NCBI GenBank assembly: GCA_013042795.1 | Contig: JABDPK010000020.1 | Span: 1 to 7,422, forward strand | Source of the DNA: Saprospiraceae bacterium | GTDB taxonomy: Bacteria > Bacteroidota > Bacteroidia > Chitinophagales > Saprospiraceae | Length of the DNA stretch: 7,422 nt | Direction: 5' to 3' | Shown: one piece after another, positions 1-6,776 of the stretch | Position numbering within the stretch: position 1 is the stretch's first letter | Layout: each line of letters opens with the position of its first letter | The notes under the pieces: model-generated | Database searches by the model: none | What the model saw: only the letters and a program-made list of their open reading frames with translations | Told to the model about the DNA's origin: nothing | Program-made: the position numbers and the translations under genes

Positions 1-2465
1 CGGGACACTGCAATATATTCAACCCCTTCCCTCTTCAAGGTTGGAATCTTATCATCATCATTCCATATTTCCTGGAACACATTCTCCGAGAGTATAACAT
101 CCTTTATGCCCATCTGCTTTGCTTTGCGACAAGCATCCCATGAGAACAACTCCATCATAAGGCGGGAAGGATCTGTGAACAATGGCACAAAACTTTCCGG
201 ATCATTCACCTTGTCTGTAACGAGGATGGCGTCAGGATGATTTTCAAACCATTGATTTATCATTGGCATATCCATCGAGGTGTATAGTTCCAGTTTCTTA
301 TACTTCCTGAAAGTCGCCAGGTCGACAGGTATATCACCAGCATATTTTGTAAGGTATCGCCATTTCTCCCAATCATGGCCAGCAACGTATTGACCGTCTG
401 AAGTTTTGATAATATCCAATTCAAACAAGCGGAAACCTTTTTCATAGGCCAGGTCCATCGCTTCAAGGCAATTGGTGTAAGTATGGCCATCAATTTCTCC
501 TCCTGCATGGGCTATAAAACGAAAAGGATCCCTGGCCTCATCCAAAATCGTGGTCATAGAACGATTCGAATGATATGGCACAAATGAGCTTTTTAAATCG
601 GTTTTCTTATGATGGGTATGTTCACTTGTAATCCCGTGATTTGAATAGGCCATATAGGCTGTCCTGTTTTTCAGTTTGCTCAATTCGGGCATCCCTACTT
701 CCTTAAATTTATTTCCCCCGTTTTTATAAATATCTCCTGCAGAATCATGTACAAAAACATAGAAACAAAGTTTGTTTTCAACGAGTTCTTTCAATCGTCT
801 TTGCAGTCTGCCTGTTTCTTCCTTATTCTCCCAGGTATCATAATTCTCCAGTTGATATTCATTATTTCTATATACAAGCACATTTATCCCCCTTTTTACT
901 TTATGCTCTTTTCTCCCGGTATACACGACTGACCTTGCACCATAATTATCTTTGGACCAGGCATTGGCGTTGATATATACTGTATCCGGGTGCAATATCC
1001 TTTTACTTTTATTCTGTTCTTCTTCGATATTTAAATCTCTGACCAGTGCTGATTCGTTCAATTGAAGAATGGCTTTACGGTTGTCTTTAAGATACTCGAC
1101 TTTGTCTCCATTGATATGATCAGAAAGAAAAGTAAGATTATGATCAACTCCGGCGCCTTCGAGCAGAAGCCCGGGTATATCCATTTGCAGGATTGTTGTC
1201 CCGGGATCAAAAGAATGGGGGTTTGAATTGGTAATAACGAACAATCCTCGAGGTTCTCTGAAATCATTCAAAACCCGGCAACCTAAATAGTATAGTAAAT
1301 GATCGGGTATAATATATATGCTCGTATTATCAAGACGACCTTCCTCTTTCAAACGATCAACCAATTTTCCGATATGCATATCAAGTGCGGCTGCCATCAT
1401 TTCAAGCTGGCTCTTTTGTTCAGGGATGACCTTGGCCATTCTTGAATCAAAAACACCATCAGGACCGTGTGTAGAGATGGTAGAAATGAAGTAAGCAAAA
1501 GGCTGTTCGCTTTCATAGAGGGAATCCAATTGAATTTCCACGATGTCAAAGAGGTCCTTATCATGCAAACCCCAATGTTCAGTTGAATACTTTTGATCAT
1601 AATCCTTTTCAGACTTGACCTTAAACCCCATCATTTCGAGCATTTCATCAGTCCCTGCGAAATCTGAATTTCCCAAAAGGTATTCACTATGGTATCCGGC
1701 TTTGGTTAGTGCATCCACAATACTTGTAAGCGTGAAACTTTTAGTATTGAAGAAAACATTGTTGCCATGCTGTTTGAAAAACATTGGAACGCCGGTTAAC
1801 CAGGTATATAAAGCAGCAATGGTGTAGTCACCGCCTTCATGTTGTTCCAAAGGATAATAATTCATTTCCTCTTTCAACTTTCTGAGATTAGGTGTTACAT
1901 CTCTGAATTCATCCTGGAGATATCCTGCTTCAATCGATTCCATTGCAATTACGATAATATTCTTACCGGGAGTCGCAACAACGGAATCCCGAGGAACAAA
2001 ATCATCATAATCCAGTCGCTCTAGGGCATCTGTAAATGCCCTTTCTCCGGCAAGATGCATTTCTGATATATCAACCAGGTTTCTTACTATCCCATTTCTG
2101 ACACTCATTCCAGCCACCAGAAGCGGTAATATTAAATACAGGTAGAGTCGTCTAATTCTTTGAATCCTTGTATCCTTATTGATCAGATAATAAAAGGCAA
2201 CAGTGAATAATAAAAAGAACAAGATCAATATGATCGATTCTTTACTGAAAAATCCAGCCACACTGGAAAATACATCCATTTTAAAATGCGCATAAAACTT
2301 GAAATCGATGAACGCGCCTCCAATAATGACTGATCCAAGTTGTATGGTAACCAGGACTCCTGCCAATATACTAAATGCCATTTTATAAGACTTTGGCTTT
2401 ATCAGGAGTCCAAGTGCAAGAAAAAATATAAAAATCAATATCAGTTGAGAAATTACAAATAGCAT
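1..2465 (-). CDS. Membrane-anchored OpgB/LtaS-type phosphoglycerol transferase fused to ILEI/FAM3-like and GDPD-like domains (3' end outside window)
   Basis: The frame is open for 821 codons from ATG at 2465 to the window edge, with no stop; an in-frame TGA lies two codons before the ATG. Residues about 2-22, 30-52, 77-95 and 107-122 are hydrophobic helices, so the rest is probably outside the cytoplasmic membrane. Residues about 168-470 resemble the alkaline-phosphatase-superfamily phosphoglycerol transferases: NIIVIAMES (E176, metal), GGDYTIAALYTWLTGVP (T215, likely nucleophile), STHGPDG (H333) and IPDH (D388, H389). The YTIA...GVP and DH blocks are closer to E. coli OpgB/MdoB than to LtaS. 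Residues about 495-612 match the FAM3/ILEI fold: RGINVLV (525-531), NYDTW (541-545), FYVFVHDSAG (568-577), TAYMAYSNHG (602-611). From about 646 a GDPD-like domain begins: IAHAGG (H653), ELD (E682, D684), GHDW (H697). Inferred role: moving and trimming glycerophosphate on an envelope glycan or lipid. The sulfatase fold and GDPD are well supported; the exact substrate is unknown. Confidence 0.85.
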   Translation of the reverse strand, partial: MLFVISQLILIFIFFLALGLLIKPKSYKMAFSILAGVLVTIQLGSVIIGGAFIDFKFYAHFKMDVFSSVAGFFSKESIILILFFLLFTVAFYYLINKDTRIQRIRRLYLYLILPLLVAGMSVRNGIVRNLVDISEMHLAGERAFTDALERLDYDDFVPRDSVVATPGKNIIVIAMESIEAGYLQDEFRDVTPNLRKLKEEMNYYPLEQHEGGDYTIAALYTWLTGVPMFFKQHGNNVFFNTKSFTLTSIVDALTKAGYHSEYLLGNSDFAGTDEMLEMMGFKVKSEKDYDQKYSTEHWGLHDKDLFDIVEIQLDSLYESEQPFAYFISTISTHGPDGVFDSRMAKVIPEQKSQLEMMAAALDMHIGKLVDRLKEEGRLDNTSIYIIPDHLLYYLGCRVLNDFREPRGLFVITNSNPHSFDPGTTILQMDIPGLLLEGAGVDHNLTFLSDHINGDKVEYLKDNRKAILQLNESALVRDLNIEEEQNKSKRILHPDTVYINANAWSKDNYGARSVVYTGRKEHKVKRGINVLVYRNNEYQLENYDTWENKEETGRLQRRLKELVENKLCFYVFVHDSAGDIYKNGGNKFKEVGMPELSKLKNRTAYMAYSNHGITSEHTHHKKTDLKSSFVPYHSNRSMTTILDEARDPFRFIAHAGGEIDGHTYTNCLEAMDLAYEKGFRLFELDIIKTSDGQYVAGHDWEKWRYLTKYAGDIPVDLATFRKYKKLELYTSMDMPMINQWFENHPDAILVTDKVNDPESFVPLFTDPSRLMMELFSWDACRKAKQMGIKDVILSENVFQEIWNDDDKIPTLKREGVEYIAVS

Positions 2466-2472
2466 TTTACAT

Positions 2473-2504
2473 CAAATCGAGTCGCAAGTTATGTTATAAA
2501 CAAA
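2473..2504 (-). promoter_or_regulatory. Possible Bacteroidota-type promoter for the phosphoglycerol transferase fusion gene
   Basis: Read on the minus strand, TTTG (2504-2501) is followed after exactly 20 bases by TCGATTTG (2480-2473), one mismatch from TAnnTTTG. Spacing and sequence fit the -33/-7 elements of the Bacteroidota housekeeping sigma factor. The predicted start would fall only a few bases before the ATG at 2465, giving an almost leaderless mRNA, which lowers confidence. No Shine-Dalgarno sequence precedes the ATG. Confidence 0.3.
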
Positions 2505-2562
2505 GAGCATCATAGTTCATCATACCGAAATTCATAAATTGAATCACTGATGAAATTAATAC

Positions 2563-2591
2563 CGATCGTTTTGATCGCAGAAAAGCTTTTC
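2563..2591. repeat. Two adjacent small palindromes, possible operator
   Basis: CGATC-N5-GATCG occupies 2563-2577, and the 12-base perfect palindrome GAAAAGCTTTTC occupies 2580-2591. They lie between the two divergent start sites, where a regulator could act, but short AT-rich palindromes also arise by chance. The symmetry is plain in the sequence; any function is speculation. Confidence 0.3.
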
Positions 2592-2616
2592 AAGAATTCA
2601 ACGTCAATAAAGGCAT

Positions 2617-2660
2617 TTGAAAGTTTTTTTACGATATAGTGACTATCAAAAAACCTTCAA
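2617..2660. repeat. 44-base inverted repeat with 13-bp arms in the divergent promoter region
   Basis: TTGAAAGTTTTTT (2617-2629) faces AAAAAACCTTCAA (2648-2660), giving 12 of 13 pairs with one A/C mismatch at 2622/2655. The 18-base loop contains its own dyad, ATAGTGACTAT (2636-2646). With T-runs on one arm and A-runs on the other it resembles a bidirectional intrinsic terminator, but no gene ends here. An operator, a cruciform or the remnant of a lost gene's terminator are alternatives. It ends 87 bases before the first trp leader ATG. Confidence 0.6.
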
Positions 2661-2747
2661 GCAGGCACTGCATAAAATCAAATAAGTGAATCATAAATTT
2701 TTCACATTTAAAAACAGAAAGTTCATAAAGAAGTATATATTTACCTT

Positions 2748-2804
2748 ATGAATTTCAATAAACTTAATAAAAATTGGTGGTGGACTTTAGATGTATTAAT
2801 CTAA
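2748..2804 (+). CDS. trpL: First trp leader peptide (attenuator 1), 18 aa
   Basis: ATG at 2748 to TAA at 2802-2804 encodes MNFNKLNKNWWWTLDVLI. Three consecutive TGG codons (2775-2783) in an 18-codon ORF just upstream of a trp operon are the hallmark of ribosome-mediated attenuation. Stalling on them when charged tRNA-Trp is scarce would sense tryptophan. There is no other ATG between the preceding in-frame stop (2709-2711) and this start, and no Shine-Dalgarno, as usual in Bacteroidota. The stop codon sits inside the distal arm of the hairpin 2785-2806, so a ribosome finishing the peptide would cover that arm. The symbol trpL is by analogy with the E. coli leader; there is no sequence homology beyond the Trp run. 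Confidence 0.9.
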   Translation: MNFNKLNKNWWWTLDVLI

Positions 2805-2853
2805 AGGAAGCGCTATTTATAAATATAACATAAGAGATCTGCTTCCGGCAGAT
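2785..2853 (+). promoter_or_regulatory. Attenuator 1: alternative pause hairpin and antiterminator
   Basis: Two mutually exclusive foldings can be drawn. Pause hairpin: CTTTAGAT (2785-2792) pairs perfectly with ATCTAAAG (2799-2806) over a 6-base loop, beginning one base after the last Trp codon. Antiterminator: ATCT (2799-2802) and GGAAGC (2806-2811) pair with AGAT (2850-2853) and GCTTCC (2841-2846), separated by a 3x3 internal loop. The antiterminator uses bases of the terminator stem and loop. A ribosome stalled on UGG codons would cover 2785-2792 and free 2799-2811, favouring readthrough into the second leader and trpE. Confidence 0.8.
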
Positions 2854-2863
2854 CTTTTTTTTT
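2835..2863 (+). terminator. Intrinsic terminator of trp attenuator 1
   Basis: AGATCTGC (2835-2842) pairs perfectly with GCAGATCT (2848-2855) across the loop TTCCG, followed by eight T (2856-2863). This is a textbook Rho-independent terminator, placed 30 bases after the first leader's stop codon. It lies upstream of a second leader and far from any long gene's end, so its role must be attenuation. Confidence 0.92.
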
Positions 2864-2869
2864 AGAGCA

Positions 2870-2929
2870 ATGAATTTGATTATAAGAAATAATAACTGGT
2901 GGTGGATTTACACTCGATTTATAATCTGA
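2870..2929 (+). CDS. trpL: Second trp leader peptide (attenuator 2), 19 aa
   Basis: ATG at 2870, seven bases after the U-tract of terminator 1, to TGA at 2927-2929 encodes MNLIIRNNNWWWIYTRFII. Again three consecutive TGG codons (2897-2905) stand at residues 10-12, preceded by Asn. It has the same start (MN), Trp-run position and length as leader 1, and the two ATGs are 122 bases apart. This suggests a duplicated attenuator unit that has diverged outside the Trp run. Because it lies after terminator 1 it is transcribed only when the first attenuator reads through, so tryptophan supply is sensed twice on one transcript. No Shine-Dalgarno is seen. Confidence 0.9.
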   Translation: MNLIIRNNNWWWIYTRFII

Positions 2930-2976
2930 GGAGACATTGCCATATGTATAAAACATTTAAAGCTTGCTTCTTGCAG
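2913..2976 (+). promoter_or_regulatory. Attenuator 2: alternative pause hairpin and antiterminator
   Basis: Pause hairpin: CTCGATT (2913-2919) pairs with AATC (2923-2926) and GAG (2928-2930), with U2927 bulged and a three-base loop; it starts eight bases after the last Trp codon. Antiterminator: CTG (2926-2928) and AGGAG (2929-2933) can pair with CAG (2974-2976) and CTTCT (2967-2971), with two bases bulged and one G-U pair. This would disrupt the terminator stem. The layout matches attenuator 1, but the competing helix is weaker, so the exact pairing is less certain. Confidence 0.6.
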
Positions 2977-2988
2977 GCTTTTTTTTTT
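2959..2988 (+). terminator. Intrinsic terminator of trp attenuator 2
   Basis: AGCTTGC (2961-2967) pairs with GCAGGCT (2973-2979) with one G-U pair and the loop TTCTT; AA at 2959-2960 can extend it with TT. The T-tract runs 2979-2988 (ten T). It ends 14 bases before the trpE ATG, the expected place for the attenuator that directly gates the structural genes. The stem is slightly weaker than in terminator 1 but the U-tract is longer. Confidence 0.88.
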
Positions 2989-3002
2989 GAAATTTTTGAA
3001 TA

Positions 3003-4418
3003 ATGATCTACAACATATTTACCAGGTACAAAAAAACGCTTGCTGACCTGCATACCCCGGTAGGCATTTACAATAAGCTAAGAGACAACTTTCCGAATGC
3101 TTTGCTTTTGGAAAGTGCAGATTATCATGACAGGACAGACAGTAAAAGTTTTATTTGCTTAGAACCTATTGCCGGGTTTGAGGCCAAAGGAAATTCCTAT
3201 ACGATTGAAATGCCGGATGGTGAAAAAAATCAGAAGACAACTGAATTTTCTAAAGATATATTTACAGCTTTCAGATCGTTTATTTCCAAATTTAAACCGG
3301 ACCTTCAAAATGAGATTCCTTTTGACATTCATGGTATTTGGGGATATAGTTCTTTCGAAGCTGTTCGGTACATGGAAGATATTAACATGGATTTACCTGT
3401 ATCTGAAGCCAAGGACAATCCTGATTTAAAATATCAGTTCTTCAAATACATCCTTGTACTTGATCACTTTAAAAACGAACTGTTTGTTTTCTGTAATGAT
3501 ATAAATGAATCAAACGATTTTCAAGAAGAGATTGATCATATTCTTCAACTGATCCTGACGAATAATCAACCCATATTTGAATTTGAATCGCTCGGCAACG
3601 AAACTTCAAGTATTGAAGATGAAGAATACAAACACCTTGTGGAAAAAGGAATTAATCATTGCAAGATTGGTGATGTATTCCAGGTCGTACTTTCCAGGGA
3701 ATACCAGCAAAAGTTCAGAGGTGATGACCTCAATTTATACAGATGTTTGAGAAGTATTAACCCATCTCCTTACCTGTTCTATTTCGATTATGGGAATTTT
3801 AAAATAATGGGATCCTCTCCTGAATCGCAATTACAGGTGATGGAAGGAACTGCAATCATTAATCCAATAGCTGGTACCATATTAAAAACCGGCAATCATG
3901 AAATAGATCTTGAAAATGCCAGGAAATTAAAAGAAGACCCCAAGGAAATGTCGGAACATGTCATGCTGGTCGACCTGGCAAGAAATGACCTGAGTAAAAA
4001 GTCAAAACACGTTGAGATAGAACGTTATGCTGAAATTCAATACTTCTCACATGTCATCCATATGGTTAGTAAAGTAAAGGGAGAGCTTTATAAAGTGCAT
4101 GACGGGCTTGAGGTATTTGCTGACACATTTCCTGCAGGTACTTTGTCTGGAGCTCCAAAATATCGTGCCATGGAAATCATCAGGGAGAATGAAAAAAATG
4201 CCAGGAATTTCTATGGAGGTGCATTGGGTTTTATTGGATTTAACGGAGCGATAAATCATGCGATAATTATCCGATCTATCCTGAGTAAAAACAATGTACT
4301 TAGCTACCAGGCTGGGGCTGGCATTGTAATCAACAGTTCTCCGGAAGGTGAACTAAAAGAAGTAAAAAACAAAACCGAAGCCATAAGAAAAGCCATAGAA
4401 AAAGCAAATGAACTATGA
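3003..4418 (+). CDS. trpE: Anthranilate synthase component I (aminase subunit)
   Basis: TrpE uses chorismate and ammonia, supplied by TrpG, to make anthranilate, the first committed step to tryptophan. At 471 aa it has normal length. The N-terminal anthranilate synthase domain carries the feedback-site motif LLES (35-38) and the second part of the Trp pocket, NPSPY (253-257), so allosteric inhibition by tryptophan is likely retained. The chorismate-binding domain shows GDVFQVV (223-229), SSPE (271-274), PIAGT (288-292), EHVMLVDLARNDL (318-330), DTFPAGTLSGAPKYRAM (374-390) and AGAGIV (437-442). PIAGT rather than PIKGT argues for anthranilate synthase over PabB aminodeoxychorismate synthase, as do the Trp leaders. 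The start is 14 bases after terminator 2, and there is no Shine-Dalgarno. The stop overlaps trpG by ATGA. Cytoplasmic. Confidence 0.98.
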   Translation: MIYNIFTRYKKTLADLHTPVGIYNKLRDNFPNALLLESADYHDRTDSKSFICLEPIAGFEAKGNSYTIEMPDGEKNQKTTEFSKDIFTAFRSFISKFKPDLQNEIPFDIHGIWGYSSFEAVRYMEDINMDLPVSEAKDNPDLKYQFFKYILVLDHFKNELFVFCNDINESNDFQEEIDHILQLILTNNQPIFEFESLGNETSSIEDEEYKHLVEKGINHCKIGDVFQVVLSREYQQKFRGDDLNLYRCLRSINPSPYLFYFDYGNFKIMGSSPESQLQVMEGTAIINPIAGTILKTGNHEIDLENARKLKEDPKEMSEHVMLVDLARNDLSKKSKHVEIERYAEIQYFSHVIHMVSKVKGELYKVHDGLEVFADTFPAGTLSGAPKYRAMEIIRENEKNARNFYGGALGFIGFNGAINHAIIIRSILSKNNVLSYQAGAGIVINSSPEGELKEVKNKTEAIRKAIEKANEL

Positions 4419-4996
4419 AGATCCTTGTAATTGACAACTACGACAGTTTTACCTATAACCTTGTTTATATTCTTCGAAAAGAATACCCGGATACAGCTAT
4501 TTTCAGAAATGACAAAATAACACCTGAGCAATGCCTGGCCTATGATTCGATAATACTTTCTCCGGGACCAGGCATCCCAAGAGATGCAGGGAATCTTTGT
4601 TCCATTATTGAATCTTGTGCCGGTAAGGTTCCCATATTGGGTGTATGCTTAGGCCATCAGGCTATCGCAGAATATTTAGGTGGAAAAATCAGGATGCTGG
4701 AAAAAGTATACCATGGTGTACAGTCTCTTGTAAGGCATACAAATGATCCGCAGGGAATATTTGATAATATCCCCGATTTATTTCACGCTGGCAGATATCA
4801 TTCATGGGATGTTATTTCTAATGGACATGAAAACTTTCAAGTGACAGCATTTTCAGAAGATGAATGTATCATGGCCATTCAAAACTCAGAAATGAATTTA
4901 TATGGTATTCAATTTCATCCAGAAAGTATATTAACCCCGCAAGGAGAAACGATTGTTAAAAACTATTTACGTATTTCTGAAAACCATGGCCGATGA
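4415..4996 (+). CDS. trpG: Anthranilate synthase component II (glutamine amidotransferase)
   Basis: This class I glutamine amidotransferase hydrolyses glutamine and passes ammonia to TrpE. The 193-residue protein is a complete stand-alone subunit, not fused to TrpD as in E. coli. The triad is C78 in GVCLGHQ and H168/E170 in QFHPE; the oxyanion loop SPGPG is at 49-53, and the N-terminal DNYDSFTYNL is typical. GRYHSW (126-131) is the usual conserved loop. Such subunits can also serve PabB for folate, which sequence alone cannot exclude, but the position between trpE and trpD with ATGA overlaps on both sides makes tryptophan synthesis the main role. Confidence 0.97.
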   Translation: MKILVIDNYDSFTYNLVYILRKEYPDTAIFRNDKITPEQCLAYDSIILSPGPGIPRDAGNLCSIIESCAGKVPILGVCLGHQAIAEYLGGKIRMLEKVYHGVQSLVRHTNDPQGIFDNIPDLFHAGRYHSWDVISNGHENFQVTAFSEDECIMAIQNSEMNLYGIQFHPESILTPQGETIVKNYLRISENHGR

Positions 4997-5982
4997 AAAA
5001 GATATTGGAAAAATTGTTTAATCACCAATACCTCACGAAAGAAGAGGCCAGGAAAATTCTGGGTGAAATATCAGAAGGAAAATATAATCCATGCGAGATT
5101 AGTGCATTTCTTTCCGTCTTCAAGATGAGGAACATTACTGTAGATGAACTGATCGGTTTCAGGAATTGCCTTAGAGAAAGATCATTGCATATTGATTTGA
5201 ACAATTTTAATCCTATCGACCTTTGTGGAACCGGGGGGGATGGAAAAGATACGTTCAATATCAGTACACTTTCTTCATTTGTTGTAGCAGGCGCAGGCTA
5301 CAAAGTAGCCAAACATGGAAACTACGGGGTCAGTTCAGTTTGCGGATCTTCAAATGTAATGCAACATCTTGGTTATCAATTTACCAATGATGAGAATAAA
5401 CTAAAGCAGCAAATAGACAAGTCGGGAATCTGTTTTCTTCATGCACCCCTCTTTCATCCTGCGATGAAAGAGGTAGCACCTGTTCGAAGAAGTATTGGTG
5501 TAAGTACATTTTTCAATATGCTGGGCCCCATGGTCAATCCCTCCTTTCCTGGTAATCAACTTGTTGGTGTCTATTCACACAAACTCCAACGATATTATAA
5601 ATATATCTACCAGAAAGAAAATACTTCTTACAGAATTGTTCATTCAATGGATGGCTATGACGAAATCAGTCTGACCGGTAAAACCAAAATAGTCAGTCCA
5701 GAAAAAGAATATTTGTTGAATCCCGGTTTTGTATCAAAAAACACAATCACACCTCTCGATTTAAAGGGTGGTAAGAATATTAAAGAATCTGCAGACATAT
5801 TCATTAAAATCTTAGAAACAAACGGAAGTGAAGCACAAAACAATGTTGTCATTGCCAATGCTGCTATGGCAATTCAATGCCTTGAACAACATCAGGATTA
5901 CTCAGAATCATTGGAGATTGCAAGAGAATCTCTCTTAAGCAAAGCAGCATATAATTCCTTAAACAAACTTATTGCAACATGA
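4993..5982 (+). CDS. trpD: Anthranilate phosphoribosyltransferase
   Basis: TrpD joins anthranilate and PRPP to give N-(5-phosphoribosyl)anthranilate. The 329-residue protein has the small helical N-terminal domain (about 1-70) and the nucleoside-phosphorylase-like domain. Visible are the pyrophosphate loop GTGGD (79-83), NIST (89-92), KHGN (107-110), the anthranilate-pocket block FLHAPLFHP (148-156) with VRRSIG (164-169), FNMLGP (174-179) and the Mg-binding DE pair (223-224). GNYGVSSVCGSSNV (109-122) replaces the more widespread GNR...SGS/TADV form; I recall this as common in Bacteroidota, so I do not read it as loss of function. There is no TrpG fusion. It contains no Trp residue. ATGA overlaps join it to trpG and trpC. 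Confidence 0.97.
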   Translation: MKKILEKLFNHQYLTKEEARKILGEISEGKYNPCEISAFLSVFKMRNITVDELIGFRNCLRERSLHIDLNNFNPIDLCGTGGDGKDTFNISTLSSFVVAGAGYKVAKHGNYGVSSVCGSSNVMQHLGYQFTNDENKLKQQIDKSGICFLHAPLFHPAMKEVAPVRRSIGVSTFFNMLGPMVNPSFPGNQLVGVYSHKLQRYYKYIYQKENTSYRIVHSMDGYDEISLTGKTKIVSPEKEYLLNPGFVSKNTITPLDLKGGKNIKESADIFIKILETNGSEAQNNVVIANAAMAIQCLEQHQDYSESLEIARESLLSKAAYNSLNKLIAT

Positions 5983-6776
5983 ACATTCTCGACAAAATAA
6001 TAGAATACAAAAAATCATACATCCAGGAAACTAGAGAACTTAAACCTGTAAAGCTTCTCGAAAGGAGTCTGTTTTTCAATACCAAACCTGTCTCTCTAAA
6101 AAAATACCTGAACAGGGAGGACAGGGTTGGCATTATAGCTGAAATAAAAAGGAGTTCTCCAAGTGCCGGGATGATAAACAATAAAATAGATGTTGAAGAA
6201 TTAAGCATTGCTTATATGCAAGCCGGTGCTTCAGCTCTTTCAGTTCTTACCGATCAGAAGTTTTTTAACGGTAATAATATTGATCTAGAAATTGCAAGGA
6301 AATACAACTATTGCCCGATCCTAAGGAAAGATTTTATTATAGATGAATACCAGCTTATTGAAGCAAAAAGTATAGGGGCCGATTGTATATTGCTTATTGC
6401 AGCATGTCTCCATCCTGCAAAGTGCCAGGAACTTGCAGCATTCGCAAAAAGCCTGGACTTGGAAGTCTTACTGGAAATCCGGGAAAAAGAAGACATAGAG
6501 ACACATGTAAATGAACATATAGATTTAATTGGAGTCAACAACAGGGATCTGAAAACTTTTCGTACTGACCTGTTAAAAAGCAAGGCACTCCATGCTTACT
6601 TACCCAAGGAACTGACATGGATTAGTGAAAGTGGAATCAGTCAGCCAGATGAGATTATCGAATTGAAAAAACTTGGTTACAAAGGATTTTTGATAGGTGG
6701 TTATTTTATGAAATATGACGAACCCGGTCGCATATGTCAAAACCTTATCAAAGAAGTCAAAACGCTGATGCAATGA
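5979..6776 (+). CDS. trpC: Indole-3-glycerol phosphate synthase
   Basis: This (beta/alpha)8-barrel enzyme decarboxylates and cyclises CdRP to indole-3-glycerol phosphate. At 265 aa it is a stand-alone TrpC, not the TrpC-TrpF fusion of enterobacteria. Catalytic motifs are in order: AEIKRSSPS (54-62; E55 and K57), LTDQKFF (90-96), LRKDF (115-119; K117), EVLLEI (162-167; E166), GVNNRDL (185-191; N187 or N188) and ISESGI (215-220). The phosphate-binding end GFLIGGYFM (236-244) is present, with GGYF where many family members have GE(S/A)L. The start overlaps the trpD stop (ATGA), as does its stop with trpF. Confidence 0.97.
   Translation: MNILDKIIEYKKSYIQETRELKPVKLLERSLFFNTKPVSLKKYLNREDRVGIIAEIKRSSPSAGMINNKIDVEELSIAYMQAGASALSVLTDQKFFNGNNIDLEIARKYNYCPILRKDFIIDEYQLIEAKSIGADCILLIAACLHPAKCQELAAFAKSLDLEVLLEIREKEDIETHVNEHIDLIGVNNRDLKTFRTDLLKSKALHAYLPKELTWISESGISQPDEIIELKKLGYKGFLIGGYFMKYDEPGRICQNLIKEVKTLMQ

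Follow-up and report, generated by a model that had tools for sequence, protein, structure and literature searches.

The DNA upstream of trpE in a Saprospiraceae bacterium raises the question of whether a single operon can be governed by two Trp attenuators placed one behind the other. The window, i.e., the whole stretch of 7,422 nucleotides analysed, carries trpE, trpG, trpD, trpC and trpF in this order on the forward strand, and a divergent gene lies upstream of them; trpE (anthranilate synthase component I, 3003-4418), recognized by gene calls and by domain and similarity searches, is the first gene of trpEGDCF. The start of each of trpG, trpD, trpC and trpF (4415-6776; trpF from the ATG at 6773) overlaps the end of the gene ahead of it by 4 bases, and these ATGA overlaps suggest translational coupling. 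The divergent gene on the reverse strand (3-2465), cut by the window edge, encodes an 821-residue phosphoglycerol-transferase-like protein in which residues 168-391 form a sulfatase domain (PF00884) and, towards the C-terminus, residues 664-726 match GDPD (PF03009). The divergent intergenic region also holds an imperfect inverted repeat, GAAAGTTTTTTTACGATATAGTGACTATCAAAAAACCTTC (2619-2658), which was spotted by eye and could be an operator or a terminator.

The best reading of 2748-2863 and 2870-2988 is that they are two leader-peptide, i.e., ribosome-mediated, Trp attenuators in series before trpE. The parts and their arrangement, all on the forward strand, are directly visible. Unit 1 opens with leader ORF 1, MNFNKLNKNWWWTLDVLI (2748-2804; ATG at 2748, TAA stop at 2802-2804), which contains the control codons UGG UGG UGG (2775-2783) and is followed by an antiterminator strand GGAAGC (2806-2811), complementary to GCTTCC at 2841-2846. 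Terminator 1 (2832-2863), found by terminator scan and folding like terminator 2, consists of a 12-pair hairpin (2832-2858; -14.6 kcal/mol) and a T-run to 2863. After a spacer of 6 bases (2864-2869), too short for a promoter, leader ORF 2, MNLIIRNNNWWWIYTRFII (2870-2929; ATG at 2870, TGA stop at 2927-2929), carries its own UGG UGG UGG (2897-2905). Its antiterminator strand GAGGAG (2928-2933) overlaps the stop codon and has CTTCTT (2967-2972) as partner, with two G-U pairs, and terminator 2 (2959-2988) has a 9-pair hairpin (2959-2981; -11.9 kcal/mol) and a T-run to 2988, beyond whose end trpE starts at a distance of 15 bases. Both units thus hold a short Trp-run ORF and an intrinsic terminator before trpE. 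An earlier note on this DNA, made from the letters alone, had proposed two full units of 116 and 119 bases with WWW at residues 10-12 of each leader and a hairpin plus U-tract terminator in each, and all of this is borne out. It had also placed a hairpin behind the Trp codons of each unit. Such a hairpin is strong in unit 1 (2785-2806), where CTTTAGAT (2785-2792) pairs with ATCTAAAG (2799-2806), but unit 2 folds differently: there CATTGCCA pairs with the Trp codons, enclosing a small hairpin.

It is scarcely credible that this layout is a chance resemblance or an assembly duplication. A scan of 2400-3200 on both strands gave 4 terminator-like sites, terminators 1 and 2 among them, where 0.4 were expected. 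When 2466-3002 was shuffled 4000 times with dinucleotides preserved, the detector found two units in none of the shuffles and one unit once, and TGGTGGTGG did not arise in any of them. In a comparison of each unit with 250 others, the two find their best match in one another (score 42; for unit 2, L123 scores equally high), as a duplication during assembly would predict, but their identity of 62% in the tree alignment is too low for a copy produced by assembly, and the same layout in other genomes refutes this explanation, short of all of those being artefacts. No Rfam family matched the window at gathering score, in a collection that includes trp leader, T-box and riboswitch families.

If both leaders are translated and both terminators act in vivo, as we infer, a plentiful supply of Trp-tRNA would let the leader ribosome reach the stop codon and cover the strand that lies just after it (unit 1) or overlaps it (unit 2), so that the terminator forms. 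With scarce Trp-tRNA the ribosome would stall on WWW, the freed strand would pair with the terminator's loop and inner 5' arm, letting the polymerase pass; charging would be sampled twice, about 120 bases apart. The geometry is consistent with this scheme, as the unit 1 strand begins 4 bases after the first base of the stop codon and the unit 2 strand overlaps the stop codon. Under an assumed footprint in which 12 bases past the codon are masked, the strand of either unit would be covered once the ribosome sits at the stop codon and left free while the ribosome stalls on Trp. Minimum-energy folds of the full-length RNA with the ribosome masked always ended in the terminator and could not test the switch, and RNA that ended before the terminator 3' arm was folded instead. 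Because the complete transcript always folds to the terminator, the predicted switch rests on the folding order, and the truncated-RNA folds describe equilibrium, not kinetics.

In unit 1, the duplex GGAAGC:GCTTCC reaches -9.8 kcal/mol (p 0.015), GCTTCC being part of the terminator's loop and inner 5' arm. Its pairing probability is about 1 when any one of the three Trp codons holds the stalled ribosome and little of the 3' arm is out, 0 with the ribosome at the stop codon and at most 0.39 with no ribosome. The number of bases of the terminator 5' half paired upstream is correspondingly 7.0, 0.0 and 2.1 (stalled, at stop, no ribosome), vs 9.3, 1.5 and 8.8 in unit 2. Part of the fall between the stalled and the stop state is a product of the method, as more sequence is hidden by the stop mask; shuffling the intervening strand is the fairer test, and there the stalled value was matched in 24/1000 shuffles for unit 1 and 10/1000 for unit 2. 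The unit 2 antiterminator duplex is weaker (-7.8 kcal/mol; 12.5% of shuffles equally good, p 0.125), and its perfect Watson-Crick match extends over 3 pairs in a row (p 0.97 vs shuffles). Its position and its seven pairs, G-U included, agree with the clade of the window described below. In the pairing-probability folds the strand window of unit 2 lay 2 bases too far downstream, and the bases-paired counts and the shuffle test are independent of it. Unit 1 is predicted to be a textbook switch, and unit 2 is modelled as the same plan with a weaker, G-U-containing antiterminator. Since the latter forms almost as readily with no ribosome, the two units may be unequal in their contribution.

The survey of trpE upstream regions drew on at least 80 Bacteroidota contigs and on genome searches, whose places were read in part (30/118 in one search, 30 loci and 53 fetched of 140 in another); two further searches contributed the given loci and 27 fetched ones. 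Regions shorter than 250 bases or with long N runs were dropped and identical ones merged, which left 250, among them L087, a trpE paralogue (35% identity) without a leader, and L290, whose region was cut 4 bases off register. A lenient detector found one unit in 184 regions, two in 40 and none in 26, so that a single attenuator before trpE, which the earlier note had taken as the standard, is indeed the norm in Bacteroidota. After removal of L284, L060 and L309, 37 tandem regions were left, i.e., L023, L074, L120 and 34/69 from the family of G002, which is the genome of L074, a Draconibacterium record placed in Prolixibacteraceae at NCBI; the genomes behind the family search for L023 were the same. 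A further 60 regions from the order of G002 (60 of the 89 places found) comprised 36 single, 20 without a unit and 4 double ones, of which L333, L354 and L361 were accepted as tandem and L332 was not. The accepted total is 40/310 regions in addition to the window, with 4 false positives removed, and consists of 36/71 regions of the Draconibacterium family, 3 others in its order and L120 from the TrpE clade of the window. This total is no phylum frequency, because the Draconibacterium family was sampled for its tandem; in sets not chosen for a tandem the accepted numbers were 2/78 (the set from the contigs listed), 1/29 (order of G001) and 0/73 (phylum sample). The comparison of related regions proposed in the earlier note shows that paired Trp leader ORFs and terminators recur, and the doubling looks like a real, selected design, not an accident.

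Several candidates were discarded. The first apparent unit of L284 is the out-of-frame end of the upstream gene with its terminator, and the real leader has its own promoter; L332 is a false pair of the same kind. The first ORF of L060 is about 290 bases more distant upstream and that of L309 about 420, and both were rejected on distance alone, while the calls for L057, L295 and L300 came from the strict detector on weak non-ATG ORFs. The bare pattern of two WWW runs 98-128 bases apart occurred in 48/395 Bacteroidota genomes, and it was dropped because none of the matches, judged by eye from their first 80 bases, resembled a leader pair; many were glycine-rich GGT repeats. A scan of viral contigs found no TrpE relatives. 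A separate regularity appeared among the Bacteroidota Trp attenuators, in which the bases around the leader stop (often GTCGTGA, with a UGA stop) match the tip of the terminator hairpin. The mean longest perfect match was 5.4-5.5 vs about 4.0 in shuffles over 261 units (187 single, 37 first, 37 second), with no difference in kind between the three classes and p 0.05 or below in 78/187 single, 11/37 first and 16/37 second units. A rule for antiterminators that holds across the phylum seems to be at work.

Series action presupposes that one transcript runs through both units. It is very unlikely that the units lie on separate transcripts, or that a promoter downstream of one or both of them carries trpE with no series action. 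The Bacteroidota -7 promoter box has the consensus TAnnTTTG. In the window, the candidate TATATTTA (2736-2743, forward strand; 5 of 6) ends 4 bases before the ATG of leader 1, with a weak best -33 match of 1 of 4; as a promoter box it would imply a very short or absent 5' UTR for leader 1. Boxes at 2694, 2871, 2982 and 2991 also score 5 of 6, so that the window promoter is not settled by sequence; the one at 2871 speaks for separate transcription, as do those at 2982 and 2991, which would bypass both units, but 5-of-6 boxes occur in 35-56% of shuffled 60-base stretches. The earlier note had singled out a transcription start in the gap between the units as a way to bypass unit 1, and the 6 bases between terminator 1 and the second ATG leave no room for it; within 60 bases upstream of leader 2, no box scores higher than TTTTTTAG, 4 of 6, which lies in the T-run. 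A relative that favours separate transcription is L284, where the promoter TATATTTG stands directly before the second of two apparent units, its real leader. Against it, perfect TAnnTTTG boxes precede 3/32 second leaders, which is the shuffled rate (3.1%), vs 121/186 single leaders (shuffled 4.6%) among the strict-detector loci, so that second leaders look promoterless, and in L354 and L361 perfect boxes occur before leader 1 only. First leaders of tandem loci were not enriched for perfect boxes (2/31, shuffled 6.3%), and a degenerate TTnTTTG-like box was seen by eye at those of the Draconibacterium family. L354 (G1018) is the cleanest tandem, with the perfect box TACATTTG 19 bases before leader 1, WWW in both leaders, both stops within CTCGTGA and matching tips in both terminators, and it is a better experimental model than the window.

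In the Draconibacterium family, unit 1 mostly reads IWLPWWG or IWLWWG, and unit 2 has WWW or a W-rich run. A pattern search collected 50 regions with the unit 1 element, in which terminator 1 and the in-frame ATG of leader 1 were lost together in 15/15 single regions and both were present in 35/35 two-unit regions. Such joint loss is expected if terminator 1 needs leader 1 for relief. The 15 losses are not independent: on our reading, L169 and the L177-L207 group are separated in the tree, and the sequences of L245, L247 and L248 are of different types. First units have a strong antiterminator duplex (28/31 at p 0.05 or below), and in the stalled-pairing shuffles 29/37 first units of tandem relatives, L120 included, stood out. 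Second units reached 6/35 for the duplex at p 0.05 or below, a set that includes the false pairs L057, L284, L295 and L300, and 3/37, not above chance, in the stalled-pairing shuffles. The stop-codon region of the second units matched the terminator tip with a mean longest match of 5.54 vs 3.96 shuffled, which underlies the 16/37 given above. It was also observed that ATAAATACAATATGGCTTCCGTGGTGGGG...GCCATATTG, or its IWLWWG form, is almost invariant at the nucleotide level, with synonymous positions conserved too, even where the in-frame ATG and the terminator are gone (L169, L177, L198, L203-L205, L207, L238-L242, L245, L247 and L248, upstream of trpE). Over 31 IWLPWWG rows with and without the start, the codons were CCG in 31/31, ATA in 31/31 and CTT in 29/31, and this conservation hints at an RNA-level role or a recent loss.

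The window itself belongs elsewhere. A TrpE tree places it with L119, L120, L121, L122, L123 and L001 (98, starred), apart from the Draconibacterium family; it was built by a quick method from a single gene, has the window on a long branch and is a proxy only. On this tree the tandem label of the strict detector needs 8 changes, gains or losses, with L163, L172, L173 and L120 marked as single that are tandem by the lenient detector. Among the genomes searched, no relative exceeded 59% TrpE identity, which is that of L119, a carrier of one unit directly before trpE; outside this set, the TrpE of Brumimicrobium and Putridiphycobacter is closer (68-69%). L120 (TrpE 55%) has two units, MKNKVTNSIWWTWIS and MNRQQTTNTAFTVWW, with a terminator after each. 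L122, L123 and L001 keep unit 1 and, seen by eye at the place of the L120 terminator 2, a short hairpin with a T-run before trpE, which falls below the detector threshold and resembles a terminator 2 in decay. In L121 no unit was detected.

An alignment of the 8 units of this clade shows covariation, with shuffle tests that overstate independence because some rows are close relatives. Nine terminator pairs are kept in 98.6% of cells, and 10 cells are double-changed vs a shuffled mean of 3.5 (0/500 shuffles as high). Two of the five measures do not favour the helix, namely pairs with a double change (4 vs 2.6 shuffled, 47/500 as high) and pair types (6 vs 8.4 shuffled). An antiterminator of 6 to 8 standard pairs, such as GAGAAGC:GCTTCTC, can be drawn in 8/8 units with the register chosen by hand, and one A-U to G-C change falls in that of unit 1. 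At the terminator pairs in alignment columns 66-67/83-84, unit 1 of the window shares GA/TC with L120_1, L122, L123 and L001, and its unit 2 shares AG/CT with L120_2 and L119. This suggests that the unit pair of the window predates the split from L120. The unit DNA tree agrees weakly (85/89, 75/71), and a tree that holds the window units together is not rejected (p 0.33), so that a duplication within the window's own lineage is possible; the mutual best match of the window units leans the same way, away from a pair older than the L120 split.

It is also conceivable that only one unit still regulates and that the other is a duplicate on its way to decay, which we regard as unlikely. In the clade, L001, L122 and L123 have unit 1 with the remnant of terminator 2, L119 has the trpE-proximal unit only and L121 has none, and in the window the antiterminator of unit 2 is the weaker. 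Against such decay, reading frame, WWW and stop codon are preserved in both leaders of the window, its two terminators are complete and carry long T-runs, the base changes since divergence keep the terminator pairs, and the stalled-state pairing of unit 2 beats 990/1000 shuffles. We consider it highly probable that two ribosome-mediated attenuators read charged tRNA-Trp in series on one transcript into trpEGDCF.

A possible reason for the doubling lies in the regulators. Models for TrpR (PF01371) and TRAP (PF02081) matched 0/16 relatives, tandem and single carriers included, while the positive controls matched as they should (PF01371 in E. coli and B. subtilis, PF02081 in B. subtilis). Because the polymerase must pass both sites to reach trpE, shut-off would be tighter than with one unit, and, as the earlier note proposed, the two readthrough probabilities may multiply and the response may be steeper. 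We tentatively propose, as a serious possibility rather than a probability, that Bacteroidota that lack TrpR and TRAP repeatedly doubled a Trp attenuator for repressor-like tightness and a steeper two-sample response, and that the pair in the clade of the window is older than the L120 split, with one or the other member lost later. Regions with two, one and a half and one unit form a natural series in which the benefit of a second identical sensor is directly testable, and this series stands in genomes where neither TrpR nor TRAP was found among the 16 relatives.

The earlier note knew of no described tandem Trp attenuator of this kind, and the open-access literature yielded no tandem Trp leader-peptide attenuator; subscription papers lay mostly outside, so that its absence in print is unproven. 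Tandem T-boxes for trp and the tandem mgtCBR leader are published. T-boxes bind tRNA directly and need no leader translation. Leader-peptide attenuation as such is mentioned for Flavobacterium psychrophilum and Bacteroides thetaiotaomicron in the accessible text of PMC9723704 and PMC7366714. The Sinorhizobium trp leader peptide is reported to act in trans (PMC7298713), and on this model the first terminated RNA or leader peptide could act in trans while the second unit attenuates. We hold this to be highly improbable here, as nothing in the window points to it and, apart from the Trp run, its leader 1 peptide has little in common with those of L120, L122, L123 and L001.

The two units of the window can be set beside several known systems. 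The classical Trp attenuators, such as those of E. coli trp, of Streptomyces and Corynebacterium trpE and of the single-unit Bacteroidota, share the short Trp-run ORF, the antiterminator (a candidate in unit 2), the intrinsic terminator and a biosynthetic gene downstream, as far as the accessible text of PMC1262725 and PMC8079986 describes them. They have one unit, whereas the window has two in series; a further difference, in the clade of the window, is an antiterminator strand that overlaps or closely follows the stop codon and has its partner in the terminator's loop and inner 5' arm. In Salmonella, a single leader with two ORFs likewise controls transcription into the mgtCBR operon, but there, in the part of PMC3641672 available, they sense different signals (ATP and proline), while both units of the window read Trp and each has its own intrinsic terminator; the same source gives metE of B. 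clausii, unlike mgtCBR, two intrinsic terminators. The gammaproteobacterial rimP-leader resembles the window in having two tandem terminators within a single leader, of which the upstream one has a potential antiterminator, and differs in standing ahead of rimP and in that the accessible text of PMC2965389 names no Trp-codon leader ORFs. Engineered pT181 attenuators placed likewise in series improved the dynamic range, according to the available text of PMC3753616, and differ in being synthetic and controlled by antisense RNA. A further parallel is offered by the tandem T-boxes before trp operons, with two and rarely three tRNA-Trp sensors, which the text available in PMC12452182 describes as observed exclusively in Bacillota. 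They are, like the units of the window, serial sensors of tRNA-Trp charging before genes of the same pathway, whereas the window has leader-peptide sensors and no T-box match in Rfam. Serial sensing of one signal before trp genes was otherwise reported, in the literature covered, only for these T-boxes, and our results indicate that translation-coupled sensors have also been doubled, in at least two separate clades of one phylum.
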